From the IMG/VR virus record IMGVR_UViG_3300039188_000001, positions 1 to 20,077 of that record: DNA of 20,077 nt; one strand, written 5' to 3'. A model generated the notes under the pieces. That model worked only from the letters and a program-made list of their open reading frames with translations. It ran no database searches and was not told the origin of the DNA. Origin of the DNA: a virus. Below, piece by piece: positions 1,757-14,673 of this stretch (within the stretch, counting starts at the first letter, position 1; each line of letters begins with the position of its first letter). Made by a program: the position numbers and the translations under genes.

Positions 1757-3235
1757 ATGTTCTGGAACCGAAAGAAGACCGAGCCGGCACCGAAGACCAA
1801 AGCGCCCGCCGATATCTACAGCATGATGAATGGGATGGGCGCGGACTCTGCGGACATGCTGCGGATGTACATTGACGAGAATGCCGTACCGATGGAAGCC
1901 CCGCACGTTGAAGGGCACGCCATGGACAGCGCGGACTCCGTGCATTCATCATCGATTAATTACGGCACTGTAAACCCCGTCATCTTCGCGCACTACGTTT
2001 CCACTGGGCAGTTCATCGGCTACCCTGCCATGGCCGTCATGGCTCAACACTGGTTGATCCGCAAGGGCTGTGAGTCCAAGCCCCGAGATGCTGTGCGCAA
2101 GTGGTATGACATAGCGGCTGACGGCGGTGAGCTTACGCCCGGCCAGATTAAGGCGATTGAAAAGCTGGATCGAAAGTTCAGCCTGAAAAACAACATTATT
2201 GAAGGCGTCACGCTTAACAACATTTTCGGCATCCGGCACATCCTGTTTAAGCACACCAACCCGGACTTTGATTATTCCAGACCATTCAACCCCGACGAGT
2301 TCCGAAATGGCGGCTATGCCGGAATTTCGCAGATAGACCCGCTTCGGTTAACGCCCGAGCTGAAAAACGACGACATCATGGACCCGATCTCCATCACGTA
2401 CATGGAGCCTACCTGGTGGCTGGTTAATGGTAAGAGGATTCACAAGAGCCATATGGTAGTGCTGACCGGCGACATGGTGCCGGACCTGCTAAAGCCTACC
2501 TATCGCTACGGCGGCGTGAGCATGGTGCAGAAAGCATTCGAGCGCGTGTACGCAGCCGAGCGCACTGCGAATGAGGCGCCACAGCTTGCGATGACCAAGA
2601 GACTGGTCTGGAGAAAGGCGGATCTCGACCAAATGGCCGCCAAGCCCGAGAAGTTCGGCCGCGCTATGCAGAAGTTGGTGGAGTTTCGGAATAACTACGG
2701 CGTTCAGTTGCTGGGCAAGGAAGAGGAAATGGGTCAGCTAGACACGTCCCTAACAGACCTTGACGCCGTGATCATGGGACAGTATCAGCTTGTATGCTCA
2801 ATCTTTGCAGAGCCTGCCAGCAAGCTTATGGGCACGGGCAGCCAGGGGTTTAGCACCGGTGACGCGGATATCGATTACCGGATAGAGTCTCTTGAAGAGC
2901 TTCAGGCTAACGAGATGACTGATATTGTAGATGCCCATTATCGCCGGCTGATACCTTCTTATGCGGCTGACCTGCAGATGAAGCCGGACGCCAGCATTTA
3001 TCCTGAGTGGTTGCCACTCCGTGTAATGAGTGACGGGGACGTGGCTGACATCAATCTTAAGAACCGCCAAGCTGATCAGCTGTTGTTCCAGATGCAAGCC
3101 ATAGACAACTTTGAAGTCCGCCAGCGTTTGATTGATGACCCGAACAGCGGATTTAATGCGCTTGAGATGCCCGCCGAAGAAGAGGATGACGATGGCGAAG
3201 AAACGGGAAGTGAAGCTAACGCGCCAGAAGTATGA
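1757..3235 (+). CDS. Portal protein (HI1409/DUF1073 family)
   Basis: This 492-residue protein would form the dodecameric ring through which DNA enters and leaves the head and to which the neck attaches. The central region (NNIFGIRHILFKHTNPDFDY) and the later motif PASKLMGTGSQGFSTG (about residues 353-368) are characteristic of the DUF1073/HI1409 phage portal family. The C-terminus is an acidic tail (EEEDDDGEE), often seen in portals. The ATG at 1757 follows an AGAGG-type SD sequence. The start of the Mu gpF-like gene is embedded in its last 44 bases, as in many phages where portal and MuF proteins are made together. Some DUF1073-related proteins carry or adjoin the anti-CBASS Acb1 phosphodiesterase; no such 2H-phosphoesterase domain is visible here. 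Confidence 0.93.
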   Translation: MFWNRKKTEPAPKTKAPADIYSMMNGMGADSADMLRMYIDENAVPMEAPHVEGHAMDSADSVHSSSINYGTVNPVIFAHYVSTGQFIGYPAMAVMAQHWLIRKGCESKPRDAVRKWYDIAADGGELTPGQIKAIEKLDRKFSLKNNIIEGVTLNNIFGIRHILFKHTNPDFDYSRPFNPDEFRNGGYAGISQIDPLRLTPELKNDDIMDPISITYMEPTWWLVNGKRIHKSHMVVLTGDMVPDLLKPTYRYGGVSMVQKAFERVYAAERTANEAPQLAMTKRLVWRKADLDQMAAKPEKFGRAMQKLVEFRNNYGVQLLGKEEEMGQLDTSLTDLDAVIMGQYQLVCSIFAEPASKLMGTGSQGFSTGDADIDYRIESLEELQANEMTDIVDAHYRRLIPSYAADLQMKPDASIYPEWLPLRVMSDGDVADINLKNRQADQLLFQMQAIDNFEVRQRLIDDPNSGFNALEMPAEEEDDDGEETGSEANAPEV

Positions 3236-9478: not shown

Positions 9479-10975
9479 ATGCCAATTTCATCCAATCGCT
9501 ACGTCGACATTACGTCTGGCGTCGGCGGTGCAGCAGCGGTAGACACTCGTGAGTTAAAGCTCCGGCTTTATACCACCAACGAACTGGTGCCCACCGGCGG
9601 TATCGTAAACTTTCGCAACGCAAACGCTGTGCTGGATTACTTTGGCGATAGCGCGGGCGAAGAGTACAAACAGGCCCTGTACTACTTTGGCTTTGTGTCC
9701 AAGGTGATCACCCAACCCCAAAACATCCAGTTTGCACGATGGGCAGATAGCGACACCAGCGCTCAGATTTTCGGGTCTAAAGTTGCTGCACTTGATACCC
9801 TAAAGACATACACCACCGCAGCGCTTGCCGTTATTATCGGCGGCGTTAGCACAGCTGTGCCGGCACTGGACTTTAGTGCCGCAGCTTCTTACGCGGCTGT
9901 TGCAACGATTATTCAGACCGCGATGACAACCGCAGCCGGGCCACTGGCATCAGCGACTGTTTCTTACAACGCCAGCCGCACAGCGTTTGAGTTCGACAGC
10001 AACATTGCGGCAGACGGTACGCTGGACATTACCTCCGGCACCGCTGGCCTGTTGGCTGATCTCGGATGGGGTAGCCAGGCTATCATCAGCGACGGCGCGA
10101 CAGAACAGAGCGTCACAGATGTTGTGTCCGGCTCCACTCAGGTCAACAACAACTACGGCTCGTTCTCGTTTATCGACGAGCTGACCCAGGTGCAAGTCGA
10201 AGAAGCCGCGAACTGGAACAACTCTCGGAACGTCGAGTTTCAATTCCATCAGCGCGTTGGCAGTGAGAATGCTCAGGCCTACTTTGACGCGCTTAAGGGT
10301 TTCGCCGGCACCGGCGTCACTCTGTACGATTCCGCGAACGGTGATCACCCGTGGCTGCTACCCTGCGCAATCCTTGCCAGCCAGCAATGGGCCAAGCCTG
10401 CCGCCAGCGCGAACTACAACTATCAGCGCGATGGCCGGCTAGTCCCGACCGTCAGCACTGACGCCTTGGCAGACACGTACGACGCTATCCGCGTGAACTA
10501 CTACGGCGTTACGCAAGAAGCCGGCACGCTGCTTGACTTCTACCAGCGCGGCCAGTTGATGGGCGGCCAGAATGCACCGACTGCGATGGGTGTGTATGCC
10601 AACGAGCAGTGGTTCAAGGCTGACATTAAAGCCTCGTTCCTGAACATGTTTCTGGCGTTCAACCAGGTTCCGGCAGACGAAACCGGCCAAGCTATCGGCT
10701 ACAGCTACATTGATGCCGCCATTGCCCGGGGCAAATTTAACGGCGTGATTGCAACCGGCAAACAGCTGACCACCACGCAGATCGGCTTTATCACGCAGAT
10801 CACGGCAGACGATAACGCATGGCGCGATGTGTCCAGCAAAGGCTGGTGGCGCGTCGTTACTATTGCTCAAGAAACCGACACAGGCGGCGTAACCACGTAT
10901 TACTTGGATTACACTCTTGTCTACGCCAAGCGCGATTCTGTTGATCGTGTTCAGGGCCGTCACGTACTCATCTAA
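9479..10975 (+). CDS. Contractile tail sheath protein (DUF3383)
   Basis: This 498-residue protein has DUF3383 features: an N-terminal ISSNRYVDITSGVGGAAAV, an early NANAVLDYFG segment with EYKQALYYFGF, and a C-terminal domain with LLDFYQRGQLMGG, NEQWFKADIKASFLNMFLAF and GWWRVVTIAQETDTGG. Sheath proteins polymerise around the tail tube and contract to drive injection, so this gene is the main evidence for myovirus morphology. The middle (about residues 105-230) is an Ala/Thr/Ser-rich insertion-like domain probably exposed on the sheath surface. A GAGGA SD sequence sits at 9468-9472. The tail tube gene follows after 12 bases. Confidence 0.9.
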   Translation: MPISSNRYVDITSGVGGAAAVDTRELKLRLYTTNELVPTGGIVNFRNANAVLDYFGDSAGEEYKQALYYFGFVSKVITQPQNIQFARWADSDTSAQIFGSKVAALDTLKTYTTAALAVIIGGVSTAVPALDFSAAASYAAVATIIQTAMTTAAGPLASATVSYNASRTAFEFDSNIAADGTLDITSGTAGLLADLGWGSQAIISDGATEQSVTDVVSGSTQVNNNYGSFSFIDELTQVQVEEAANWNNSRNVEFQFHQRVGSENAQAYFDALKGFAGTGVTLYDSANGDHPWLLPCAILASQQWAKPAASANYNYQRDGRLVPTVSTDALADTYDAIRVNYYGVTQEAGTLLDFYQRGQLMGGQNAPTAMGVYANEQWFKADIKASFLNMFLAFNQVPADETGQAIGYSYIDAAIARGKFNGVIATGKQLTTTQIGFITQITADDNAWRDVSSKGWWRVVTIAQETDTGGVTTYYLDYTLVYAKRDSVDRVQGRHVLI

Positions 10976-10987
10976 AGGGGCATAGCT

Positions 10988-11458
10988 ATGACTGATATTT
11001 CGCACCTGGGGACGGTCGTCACTATCTCCGCTAGCAATACCACCGCCAACGCGCCGATCCCTTTGACCGCGTTCCCGAAAGACACGGACCCGGTGAGCAT
11101 CCCGAACGTGACCTTGGGTGCCATGGAGATTGGCACGAACGGCGATCCCATTACCTGGTCAATGGCCACGCCGAAAGAGCTGACGCTGGCCATCATCCCG
11201 AACACGCCTGACCATGTGTTCATGCAGCAGCTGGTTCAGCTCAACACTCCGGAGAAGGGCAAGCGCTCGAACAACGACCGCATCACCCTGACACGCGTTA
11301 TGCCCAACGGCGGAATTCTGCTGTGTGAAGATGGCAAATTGGTAGAGGGTTCACCCGCTGTCAGCCAGTCTTCTAGCGGTAGAATCAATACCGTTACCTA
11401 TCGGTTTATGTTCGGCAAGATGAGCGAGACGCCGCCGGTGATTGAGCTGGCTCAGTAG
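10988..11458 (+). CDS. Tail tube protein
   Basis: This 156-residue beta-rich protein lies immediately after the sheath gene, the usual place for the tube subunit, and has a strong AAAGGGG SD sequence at 10973-10979. Segments such as VTLGAMEIGTNGDPITW, ELTLAIIPNTPDHVFMQQLV and the closing YRFMFGKMSETPP match small tail proteins found after DUF3383 sheaths. The tube is the inner channel through which DNA passes. It ends one step before a strong terminator, consistent with a sheath-tube unit expressed at high level. The role is supported mainly by position and size. Confidence 0.8.
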   Translation: MTDISHLGTVVTISASNTTANAPIPLTAFPKDTDPVSIPNVTLGAMEIGTNGDPITWSMATPKELTLAIIPNTPDHVFMQQLVQLNTPEKGKRSNNDRITLTRVMPNGGILLCEDGKLVEGSPAVSQSSSGRINTVTYRFMFGKMSETPPVIELAQ

Positions 11459-11684: not shown

Positions 11685-11999
11685 ATGAAAATACTAACAG
11701 CAGCAATCCTGACCCTTACCCTGGCAACCACTGCCCAAGCAGAGATCACACGCGAGGAAATGCTCGAACGATGCAGGCAAGTCAGCAACCTAGCATCGGC
11801 AATCATGGAAGAGCGCCAGAGCGGCGTGACCATGCAAGTAATGATGGAGCGACTGAAAGGCAGCGAGTTTTCTATGTCGCTGGTAATGGCCGCATATAAA
11901 CAGCGTCAGAATATGACTGAAGAACATCAGCAAAAGTCTGTCAATGAATTTGCGAGCCAAGTTTATTTAAAGTGCGCCAAGGAATGGGAATCCCTATAG
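11685..11999 (+). CDS. Small secreted (periplasmic) protein of unknown function
   Basis: The protein has 104 residues from an ATG preceded by AGGAG (11672-11676). The N-terminus is a textbook signal peptide: Lys2, a hydrophobic core (ILTAAILTLTLATT) and a TAQA cleavage site, giving a mature protein of about 85 residues starting at Glu20. The mature part is helical, with CRQVSNLASAIMEERQSGV (30-48) followed by a Met-rich segment, and has two cysteines (30 and 97) that could form a periplasmic disulfide. Similar small Cys/Met-rich exported proteins with an IMxxRQxG pattern occur in proteobacterial phages, without a known function as far as I recall. It sits alone between the tube terminator and the chaperone gene and is not an obvious virion part. 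Roles in lysis control or superinfection exclusion are possible but not shown. Confidence 0.85.
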   Translation: MKILTAAILTLTLATTAQAEITREEMLERCRQVSNLASAIMEERQSGVTMQVMMERLKGSEFSMSLVMAAYKQRQNMTEEHQQKSVNEFASQVYLKCAKEWESL

Positions 12000-12098: not shown

Positions 12099-12635
12099 AT
12101 GGCATTGATCAAACCCAAGGAAGTCACGCTGAGATCAGACGTTGGCGATCCTGTTGAGAAGACATTCCAGATTGGCCGCTACCCGGCGACCCAGGCTATC
12201 GAGATGATCACCCGTGGCGCGGCTCTGTTGCGCGATGCAGTGAAGGGCAACCCCGCAAGCTCTGAGCAGTACTCGAAGTCGTTCCAGAAGCTAGGCAACG
12301 ACATGTGCAAGTTCGTTGAGGCTCAGATGCCAAACGGTGAGTTTACGCCACTCGGCAGCGATCACATGATCAACGCGCACATCCCAGACGGCGATATGTT
12401 CCTGATGTTGATGCGTGAGGTACATGATCATAACTCAAATTTTATGAACACCGGGCGTCTCTTCAAAACGTCCCGGTCATTGCTGGATCAGGCAAAAGCA
12501 CAGATTACGCAAACATTGAGCCAGTTCTCGGGTTCATCATCTCCGAGCGCCAAGCCACGCTCTCAGACCTCCGCAAAGTCTACGACTACGAAGACGCGCT
12601 CGACCTCTACGAAGCGGCAATCGTCCCCAAAATGA
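12099..12635 (+). CDS. Tail assembly chaperone, short (zero-frame) form
   Basis: The protein has 178 residues from ATG 12099, chosen because AGGAG at 12087-12091 is correctly spaced; an upstream TTG at 12024 has no SD sequence. The N-terminal ~115 residues look like an ordinary globular protein (VEKTFQIGRYPATQAIEMIT, MPNGEFTPLGSDHMINAHIP). The position between the tail tube and tape measure is that of the G-type tail chaperone, which coats the tape measure during tail assembly. The last ~35 residues are an extreme Ser/Thr/Lys-rich tail (STTTKTRSTSTKRQSSPK) and overlap a well-formed coding sequence in the -1 frame. That tail is therefore probably an overprinted by-product rather than a conserved domain. 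Confidence 0.8.
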   Translation: MALIKPKEVTLRSDVGDPVEKTFQIGRYPATQAIEMITRGAALLRDAVKGNPASSEQYSKSFQKLGNDMCKFVEAQMPNGEFTPLGSDHMINAHIPDGDMFLMLMREVHDHNSNFMNTGRLFKTSRSLLDQAKAQITQTLSQFSGSSSPSAKPRSQTSAKSTTTKTRSTSTKRQSSPK

Positions 12636-12688
12636 ACGAGTATCACGCGCATAAGGAGGCGCAGGACAAATCAAGACAGGGACGGTAA
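12099..12688 (+). CDS. Tail assembly chaperone, long form by -1 ribosomal frameshift
   Basis: The -1 frame is open from 12434 to the TAA at 12686-12688 and encodes PVLGFIISERQATLSDLRKV, a DYEDALDLYEA segment and a charged end (NEYHAHKEAQDKS). This resembles the T-type C-terminal domain of phage tail chaperones (ATLSxL followed by a YEDALDLYE-type helix). It has strong third-position G+C preference. Before codon 12632 the frame contains no ATG, GTG, TTG or CTG codon, so it cannot start by itself and must be reached from the upstream gene. Slipping at AAATTTT (12437-12443) gives 115 zero-frame plus 81 shifted residues, 196 in total, the same total length wherever in the overlap the slip happens. 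The lambda gpG/gpGT pair is the model. A sequencing indel is the alternative, but then the zero-frame tail would need another explanation. Confidence 0.75.
12437..12443 (+). promoter_or_regulatory. Candidate -1 slippery site A AAT TTT
   Basis: In the zero frame the codons read TCA AAT TTT, so the heptamer obeys the X XXY YYZ rule exactly. It lies four bases after the last -1 frame stop (TAA, 12431-12433), that is at the first position where a -1 slip can be productive. No clear downstream pseudoknot was identified by eye. Confidence 0.55.
12626..12632 (+). promoter_or_regulatory. Second -1 slippery heptamer C CCA AAA directly before the stop
   Basis: Zero-frame codons TCC CCA AAA are followed immediately by TGA (12633-12635), forming a canonical X XXY YYZ heptamer abutting the stop. 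Slipping here would add only 18 residues (MNEYHAHKEAQDKSRQGR) and skip the conserved -1 frame core, so it is a weaker candidate for the main event. Confidence 0.35.
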
Positions 12689-12701
12689 CACGTCCCTTTT
12701 T
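12678..12701 (+). terminator. Rho-independent terminator after the tail chaperone
   Basis: AGGGACG and CGTCCCT form a perfect 7-bp stem with loop GTAACA, followed by TTTT (five T counting the stem base). The stop codon of the frameshifted chaperone lies inside the loop, so ribosomes finishing the long form would cover the hairpin, while those ending at 12635 would not. Confidence 0.85.
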
Positions 12702-12727
12702 CATTTCAGCCCGCAACCACGTATAAT
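12698..12727 (+). promoter_or_regulatory. Candidate promoter for the tape measure / baseplate genes
   Basis: A perfect TATAAT at 12722-12727 is preceded at 18 bases by TTTTCA (4 of 6 to TTGACA), directly downstream of the chaperone terminator. A terminator followed at once by a promoter suggests a new transcription unit for tape measure and baseplate. Confidence 0.4.
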
Positions 12728-12759: not shown

Positions 12760-14673
12760 TTGAGCCTTCTCGATACATTCAGCCTACTTTTTGAAACCGA
12801 CGCCGGTGAAGCTGCCGATGATGTTGGCCGCCTGTCTGATGAGCTGGACGGTGCCGGCGATGCGGGTGGGGCCGCGGCTGCGGGCGTAGACGAATCTTCA
12901 CAAGCCGCACAGCGTGGCGCTGAATCGTTCAACAGCATGGCAAAGACCGTGGGAGGGCTTGTTGCTGCGTACCTGTCGTTTGGTGCTGTGAGCGCTGCGG
13001 TGTTTGGCCAGGCTCTGGCTACAGATCAAGTAGGCAAGTTCTCCGAAACCGTGGGCCTGTCCATCGAGACCGTGGACGCATGGGGCGCGGCTGTCGCCCT
13101 AAACGGCGGAAGCGCTGACTCTTTCCGGGGCTCTATTCAATCCCTTAATTCGGCAATGAGTGATATTGCCCTGGGCGGCGGCGGCGACATTGCCGAAGTG
13201 CTGGGCCGCCTTGGCGTGTCTGCGCTGGACTCAAGCGGGCGCATCAAGTCTGTTACTGACCTGCTGCCGCAGCTGGCGGACTCGTTCCAGAATTTGAGCA
13301 ACCGTGAATCCGTAGCGTTTGGCGAAAAACTAGGCCTAGACCAAGGCACGATCCTGCTGTTGCAGCAAGGGCGAGGGGCTGTGGAGGCCATTGTTGAGCA
13401 ACAGCGCCAGCTTGGCGGCCGCACTAAAGAAGGCTACGAGGCATCTGCAAAATTTAACGACACACTGAACGACACGAAGCGCGTGTTTGTTGGCATGTCT
13501 GATACGGCCAACCAAGCGCTCTTGCCTGTTCTAACAAAGATCTTAGAGGGGTTTCAGACAATAACAATCTGGGCCCGTGAGCATGAAGATGTTGTCAAAG
13601 GGTTCTTTATTGGGGTCGCCGGGGCCATCGCCGCGTTTTACTTGCCAACGATTTTTGCCGCCGCCGCCGCTACACTCGTTGCGGCCGCTCCATTCCTTTT
13701 AATCGCCGCCACGGTTGCCGCAGTGGGCATTGCTTTCGGCCTTCTGTACGAAGACGTTAAAGCATACATAGGCGGGCAAGAGTCGTTTGTAGGATCCCTG
13801 GGGGATAAATACGAGTGGTTCGGAAAGCTCCTTGACGCCGTAATAGCTGGCGCAAAGTTCTTATTTCGTGAGTTGTCAGAATTTGCTCAAGAAATGTTTG
13901 GCAACCTGGGCAACGGCTTAGAAATAGTAGGCGGGATATTTGAGGCAATATTTTCAGGAATTGGAAATCTATTCGGCGTCTTCGGACTTGATGCAGGCAC
14001 AGCCACCGAAAACGTAATATCTGCTTTTAGGGTACTGGGCAAGATCATCGGCGAGGTTCTGGGCTTTATTGCCTCGCCGATTGAAACCACAAAAGAACTC
14101 TTTGACTCTCTGTTCACTTGGATTGGCGGCCTGCTAGAAGATTTTGGGATAGATTCAGCGGCTGTAACAAAGGAGGTCGCCGCTGCATTTCAGGTTCTTG
14201 GGGATATTATTGACAAGATTTTTGGATTTATTGCGTCCCCGATTGAGTCAACGAAAGAGCTTATTGATGACCTGGTTGAGTCAATCCCCGACATGAGCGA
14301 ATTGTTTGATGATGCGGTAGGCGGGGTTAAGGATTTCTTTTCGTTTGGCAGCAATGATGATGAAATAAATGGATCTGAATCCAACACAAAGAGAATGAAT
14401 GATCAGGGCCCTGGAACATCTAGCTTTGCTCAGCTCATAAACCAAAGCCAGCAGGCCATGGCCGCATCAGAAACCGCAAACGCCAACCCCATGCTGAGCG
14501 GTGCCGGCGGCGCAGGGTCTCGGACATCATTCGTCAGTCAGAGCAACAGCTTCAGCACGACTGTAGACGCGCGCGGCCAAACCCCTGAGCAGGCCCGCGC
14601 AATATACGGGGACGAAATGAGCAGAAGCGTAGCAACGGCCAAGGGCCAGCTTGATGATGGAGTAGCTTACTGA
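12760..14673 (+). CDS. Tape measure protein
   Basis: This 637-residue protein is the longest in the window and lies right after the tail chaperone, the invariant place of the tape measure. It starts with TTG (12760; MSLLDTFSLLFETDAGEAAD), preceded by a weak ACGGGA. The N-terminal third is Ala/Gly-rich and helical. Residues 281-330 form a strongly hydrophobic Ala-rich region (FFIGVAGAIAAFYLP, LVAAAPFLLIAATVAAVGIA) able to insert in membrane during injection. Residues 408-515 hold a twofold 54-residue repeat. The C-terminus (QTPEQARAIYGDEMSRSVA) is typical of the family. It sets tail length: at about 1.5 angstrom per residue the tail would be roughly 95 nm, on the rule of thumb for tape measures. 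Its stop overlaps the next ATG. Confidence 0.92.
   Translation: MSLLDTFSLLFETDAGEAADDVGRLSDELDGAGDAGGAAAAGVDESSQAAQRGAESFNSMAKTVGGLVAAYLSFGAVSAAVFGQALATDQVGKFSETVGLSIETVDAWGAAVALNGGSADSFRGSIQSLNSAMSDIALGGGGDIAEVLGRLGVSALDSSGRIKSVTDLLPQLADSFQNLSNRESVAFGEKLGLDQGTILLLQQGRGAVEAIVEQQRQLGGRTKEGYEASAKFNDTLNDTKRVFVGMSDTANQALLPVLTKILEGFQTITIWAREHEDVVKGFFIGVAGAIAAFYLPTIFAAAAATLVAAAPFLLIAATVAAVGIAFGLLYEDVKAYIGGQESFVGSLGDKYEWFGKLLDAVIAGAKFLFRELSEFAQEMFGNLGNGLEIVGGIFEAIFSGIGNLFGVFGLDAGTATENVISAFRVLGKIIGEVLGFIASPIETTKELFDSLFTWIGGLLEDFGIDSAAVTKEVAAAFQVLGDIIDKIFGFIASPIESTKELIDDLVESIPDMSELFDDAVGGVKDFFSFGSNDDEINGSESNTKRMNDQGPGTSSFAQLINQSQQAMAASETANANPMLSGAGGAGSRTSFVSQSNSFSTTVDARGQTPEQARAIYGDEMSRSVATAKGQLDDGVAY
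13981..14304 (+). repeat. Two tandem 54-codon repeats in the tape measure gene
   Basis: Units begin at Phe408 (13981) and Phe462 (14143), 162 bases apart. Both follow the plan F-G-[LI]-D, then AF-x-VLG-x-II, then GFIASPIE-[TS]-TKEL-x-D. About 27 of 48 aligned residues are identical by eye. The DNA has diverged, so the duplication is old. Confidence 0.8.

Follow-up and report, generated by a model that had tools for sequence, protein, structure and literature searches.

The virus locus described here very probably encodes a tail assembly chaperone of the lambda G/GT type, in which a programmed -1 frameshift at positions 12437-12443 would append a second domain to the product of the upstream gene. 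The window, that is, the whole stretch of DNA analysed, is the 20,077-base virus record IMGVR_UViG_3300039188_000001. The initial annotation had proposed a lambda gpG/gpGT-type chaperone for this locus, and that proposal is supported by profile matches, conserved reading frames, a well-placed heptamer and dual-frame constraint; the observations established here comprise the gene order, the frames themselves, the heptamer, homology and selection in both frames.

The gene order is that expected for the G/GT type, with the chaperone pair located between the tail tube and sheath genes and the tape measure gene. The sheath gene (9479-10975) is assigned by profile matches to PF11863 (DUF3383) and phrog_205, and is followed by a gene in the tube position (10988-11458; PF22764) and a small phrog_2315 gene (11685-11999), which lies between the latter and the chaperone. 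Directly 3' of the chaperone locus is the tape measure gene (12760-14673, plus strand; phrog_34923, E 4e-125), which has a TTG start and whose N-terminus, MSLLDTF..., resembles the MALLDTF of relatives (relatives' start ATGGCTTTGCTAGATAC). The initial annotation had noted that standard gene callers would miss the second domain and so leave an apparently uncoupled gap before the tape measure gene; this gap is not featureless. It includes a terminator-like hairpin (12678-12697, plus strand; a consensus match only), AGGGACGGTAACACGTCCCT with TTTTC after it, which overlaps the stop codon of the -1 frame. Just 5' of the tape measure gene there is also a promoter-like, sigma-70-like consensus match, TTTTCA-18-TATAAT, at 12698-12727.

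The frame-0 gene (12099-12635, plus strand) begins with ATG and encodes the gpG-like short form of 178 amino acids, an assignment based on relatives and on phrog_20369, a family annotated as 'tail assembly chaperone'. When the two frames are joined, residues 1-189 of the product match this profile with an E-value of 2.3e-30, which is better than that of the frame-0 part (1.7e-22) or of the -1 part (5.9e-7) taken separately. No meaningful match to the chaperone was found among Pfam and NCBIfam models.

The -1 frame opens at 12434, after the TAA at 12431-12433, and runs for 84 codons on the plus strand to the TAA at 12686-12688. It contains the sequence FIISERQATLSDLRKVYDYE quoted in the initial annotation, where the domain was described as lacking a start codon, and this description is borne out: the first and only ATG, GTG, TTG or CTG codon within 12434-12688 is the ATG at 12632, from which one would conclude that the domain can be produced only via a -1 shift. 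The profile search of the -1 translation that had been proposed as a check identifies it as a C-terminal, gpT-like domain, with matches to phrog_3976 (E 7e-8) and phrog_20369 (about E 6e-7) and a supporting alignment, and tblastn with this domain gives phage matches up to E 8e-20. The length of the open frame was dropped as evidence by itself, since codon-shuffling of the upstream gene gives, in 31% of cases, a -1 stretch of 66 codons or more, which is as long as the overlap.

Relatives were collected by tblastn, pattern searches and a scan by frame-0 alignment, and they include Vibrio, Shewanella, Bordetella, Stenotrophomonas, Yersinia, Pseudomonas, Erwinia and Acetobacter phages together with about 80 IMG/VR records; a search of plasmids gave no match. 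When 87 related loci, many of them from complete phage genomes, were scanned with profiles of both domains, the C-domain was located in the -1 frame in 86, the exception being L069, where a 2-nt deletion inside the domain alters the frame relation. This frame arrangement, together with homology and a change at the shift site in where substitutions fall (described below), places the -1 domain beyond chance. It also bears on the suggestion that an assembly or sequencing indel has split a single reading frame, which might be entertained given that the window comes from a metagenomic record, that L069 carries its deletion and that the frame is broken within the domain in Vibrio phage BT-1011. However, the same -1 relation in independent genomes excludes a one-off sequencing indel, both frames of the window match relatives without a break, and the relatives already refute an indel as a general explanation, making this account exceedingly improbable. 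As for the break in Vibrio phage BT-1011 (L004), it lies near 2985-3009, where the -1 frame ends early through an apparent small deletion relative to L003, and it looks like a sequencing error or a mutation.

The initial annotation had invoked a -1 shift from the upstream gene without naming a site; the shift is supported, and the site can now be placed at the slippery heptamer A AAT TTT (12437-12443, plus strand), which starts three bases past the opening of the -1 frame. It conforms in frame to X XXY YYZ, reading TCA AAT TTT ATG in frame 0 and AAA TTT TAT in frame -1. Both tRNAs would be able to re-pair after a slip of one base; the chance of an in-frame heptamer in the frame-0 gene is about 0.005 per codon. 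A canonical heptamer occupies the same aligned codons in 56 of 64 distinct overlap sequences, counting the window. Most of these have T TTT TTC; A AAT TTT is shared by the window and L010, L005 has A AAA AAG, and L004 and L020 have T TTT TTT. A TTC codon follows A AAT TTT in L003 and L013, and because these two relatives carry both elements, the TTC codon of the common site was apparently lost in the window, where the overlapping A AAT TTT was kept. The remaining eight sequences (L002, L015, L017, L018, L008, L022, L025 and L027) keep the -1 frame with GCA CTT TTY or a double TTC at the site in place of a canonical heptamer, and thus a canonical heptamer is not an absolute requirement across the family. 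One possible, although rather doubtful, reading of this variation is that the slippery element was remade repeatedly at this one set of codons (as T TTT TTC, A AAT TTT, A AAA AAG and T TTT TTT) and that at least two lineages, with GCA CTT TTY and TCN TTC TTC, shift there without a canonical heptamer, in which case a -1 signal outside the standard heptamer would operate in them.

Selection in the two frames was examined by comparing substitutions between the window and its closest relative, L010. Upstream of the site, the changes at frame-0 codon positions 1, 2 and 3 number 7, 3 and 49 over 115 codons, and 46 of the 55 changed codons are synonymous, while in the 63 codons of the overlap the corresponding numbers are 5, 9 and 5, a drop in third-position changes at the site with a Fisher p of 5e-7. 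Before the site, third-position changes are last seen at 12425; dual-frame constraint sets in between 12425 and 12465, and from 12510 to 12632 third positions of the -1 frame account for eight of 13 changes. Over the family as a whole, the proportion of conserved residues encoded by identical codons is 36-50% upstream, against 49-87% within the overlap and 66-80% at the site. This collapse in third-position changes and the jump in codon identity at the site argue for constraint on both frames beginning at about the heptamer, with the -1 frame dominating the second part of the overlap. Because of this dominance, the S/T/K-rich tail formed by the last ~20 residues of the frame-0 product, which is present in the window and L010 and absent from other relatives, looks like a by-product of the -1 frame.

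A shift later in the overlap was also considered, with A AAA G near 12494-12498 and C CCA AAA at 12626 as candidate sites, both of which are present in frame. The A AAA element, however, is lost in L010 (GCC AAA GCA), where A AAT TTT is retained, and C CCA AAA falls past most of the domain; moreover, the constraint begins too early for either, and the conserved heptamer position in the family is 12437-12443. Both were therefore rejected as shift sites, and a later shift is regarded as highly unlikely.

The -1 domain might instead be thought of as a small protein in its own right, initiated internally at a non-standard start codon, given that its frame contains ATT/ATC codons at 12479, 12515 and 12536, and given that gene callers sometimes call the domain alone, as illustrated by phrog_3976 (67 aa) and, in the viral structure library, by short orphan entries. 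Against this stand the lack of ATG, GTG, TTG or CTG before 12632 and a family-wide pattern in which only three of the 87 -1 frames have a TTG or GTG before the C-domain and the other 84 have no ATG, GTG or TTG there, so that relatives do not generally supply the second domain with its own start codon. Constraint on both frames from about the slippery site onward also argues against a separate protein, as does an in-frame homologue in a Serratia phage, MyoSmar_059, in which the domain continues an upstream chain unbroken: its profile alignment starts at NFEFL, matching the residues around the shift site, and the NxF motif at the join aligns with that site. Taken together, these points make a separately initiated protein very improbable.

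MyoSmar_059 itself (L092:2231-2749; 172 aa) contains the same C-domain in frame (E 1e-13). Given its location in the baseplate region, away from the tape measure gene, it probably represents a C-domain homologue serving another role and not a frame-fused version of the chaperone gene.

Downstream of the heptamer, after a spacing of 6 nt, a hairpin of nine pairs, ACCGGGCGU...ACG/CCCGGU, is predicted at 12450-12477 (plus strand), with folding z-scores of -3.1 for the 50 bases at 12449-12498 and -1.9 for the 60 nt past the heptamer. The stem is common to the window and L010; in L003 most of it is retained, with U-A in place of one C-G pair; the strong hairpin of L013 lies in a shifted register; and L004 and L005 have none. 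Among 15 dissimilar sequences the mean z at the site is -0.95, the lowest value from 225 bases upstream to 120 downstream, and four of the 15 are below -2. Strong downstream structure is thus common in the family and not universal. Family support for the hairpin is modest, and it is treated as an optional stimulator.

In the proposed frameshift mechanism, most ribosomes would translate 12099-12635 to give the short chaperone, and a minority would slip back by one base on A AAT TTT, with re-pairing in the P site from AAU to AAA and in the A site from UUU to UUU, probably assisted by the hairpin at 12450-12477. Reading in the -1 frame to 12688 would then yield a long form of 196 residues, composed of frame-0 residues 1-115, which end in HNSNF, and then YEHRASLQNVP...QGR. 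On the lambda model, many short and few long forms would coat the tape measure protein produced from the next gene, the C-terminal domain of the long form would recruit tail tube subunits, and both forms would leave before the tail matures.

Among solved structures, sequence-profile searches identified no homologue of either domain. Structural models were also considered, based on alignments without rows from the phages collection. The model of the frame-0 N-domain (window 12099-12458) has a pLDDT of 73, and its top three PDB matches are 5ir0 (Z 8.9), 3klu (Z 6.4) and 2ob9 (Z 6.0), the next being 3.9. Of these, 2ob9 is the HK97 tail assembly chaperone, aligned over 91 residues with an rmsd of 4.0 and 13% identity, a match that alone is below the tool's secure level. 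The three matches stand apart from the remainder and lend tentative support to a tail-chaperone fold; Foldseek alone gave no significant match to this model. The C-domain is modeled as three helices with a pLDDT of 77; searches of the viral structure library with this model gave nothing significant, and those of the PDB nothing useful. The best match of the N-domain model, 5ir0, is ORF19 of a Vibrio cholerae phage-inducible-island-like element, and this modeled similarity suggests that the satellite protein may be a tail-chaperone homologue.

A chaperone produced by -1 frameshifting is a known mechanism, of which this locus is a well-supported new example and not a new phenomenon. The mechanism of lambda G/GT and its wide conservation have been reviewed (PMC5009743), and the A AAT TTT heptamer, the lack of a Pfam tail-chaperone match and the contractile-tail context (DUF3383 sheath) distinguish the present locus from lambda gpG/gpGT and the general G/GT cassette described there. 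In HK97-like chaperone genes, reporter frameshift efficiencies of 6-7% were obtained (PMC3711429). Compared by arrangement, the locus resembles those of Vandenendeviridae and Andersonviridae, including Pseudomonas phage Adele, in having myovirus TAC-N/TAC-NC products, a conserved -1 frame and a poly-T slippery motif (PMC12846349). In Vandenendeviridae the -1 shift is conserved with a GTTTTT motif, and Adele is similar to the present case in that its second domain is missed by the usual annotation and different in its GTTTTT motif (PMC12846349). Homologous N- and C-domains are found in S141_46/S141_47 of Shewanella sp. phage 1/41 (KJ018212), annotated as a short CDS and a joined CDS, but the site there is GCA CTT TTT TCA, which lacks a canonical heptamer. 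Yersinia phage P744 likewise has a non-canonical site.

The correct gene product is thereby supplied for a widespread and mostly unannotated myovirus chaperone; in most of the public records checked (Vibrio, Bordetella, Stenotrophomonas, Yersinia and Pseudomonas phages), no joined CDS covers the second domain. Across the family, different slippery sequences replace one another at a single fixed position, a natural series suitable for testing which sequences support a -1 shift. PHROG 3976 and 4774, both listed as of unknown function, contain the second (C-) domain. Two phrog_4774 proteins, MyoSmar_059 and one from Burkholderia phage Bm1 (L095:1773-2153), are encoded in the baseplate region with the C-domain homologue in frame, and such proteins may act in baseplate assembly as relatives of the tail chaperones.
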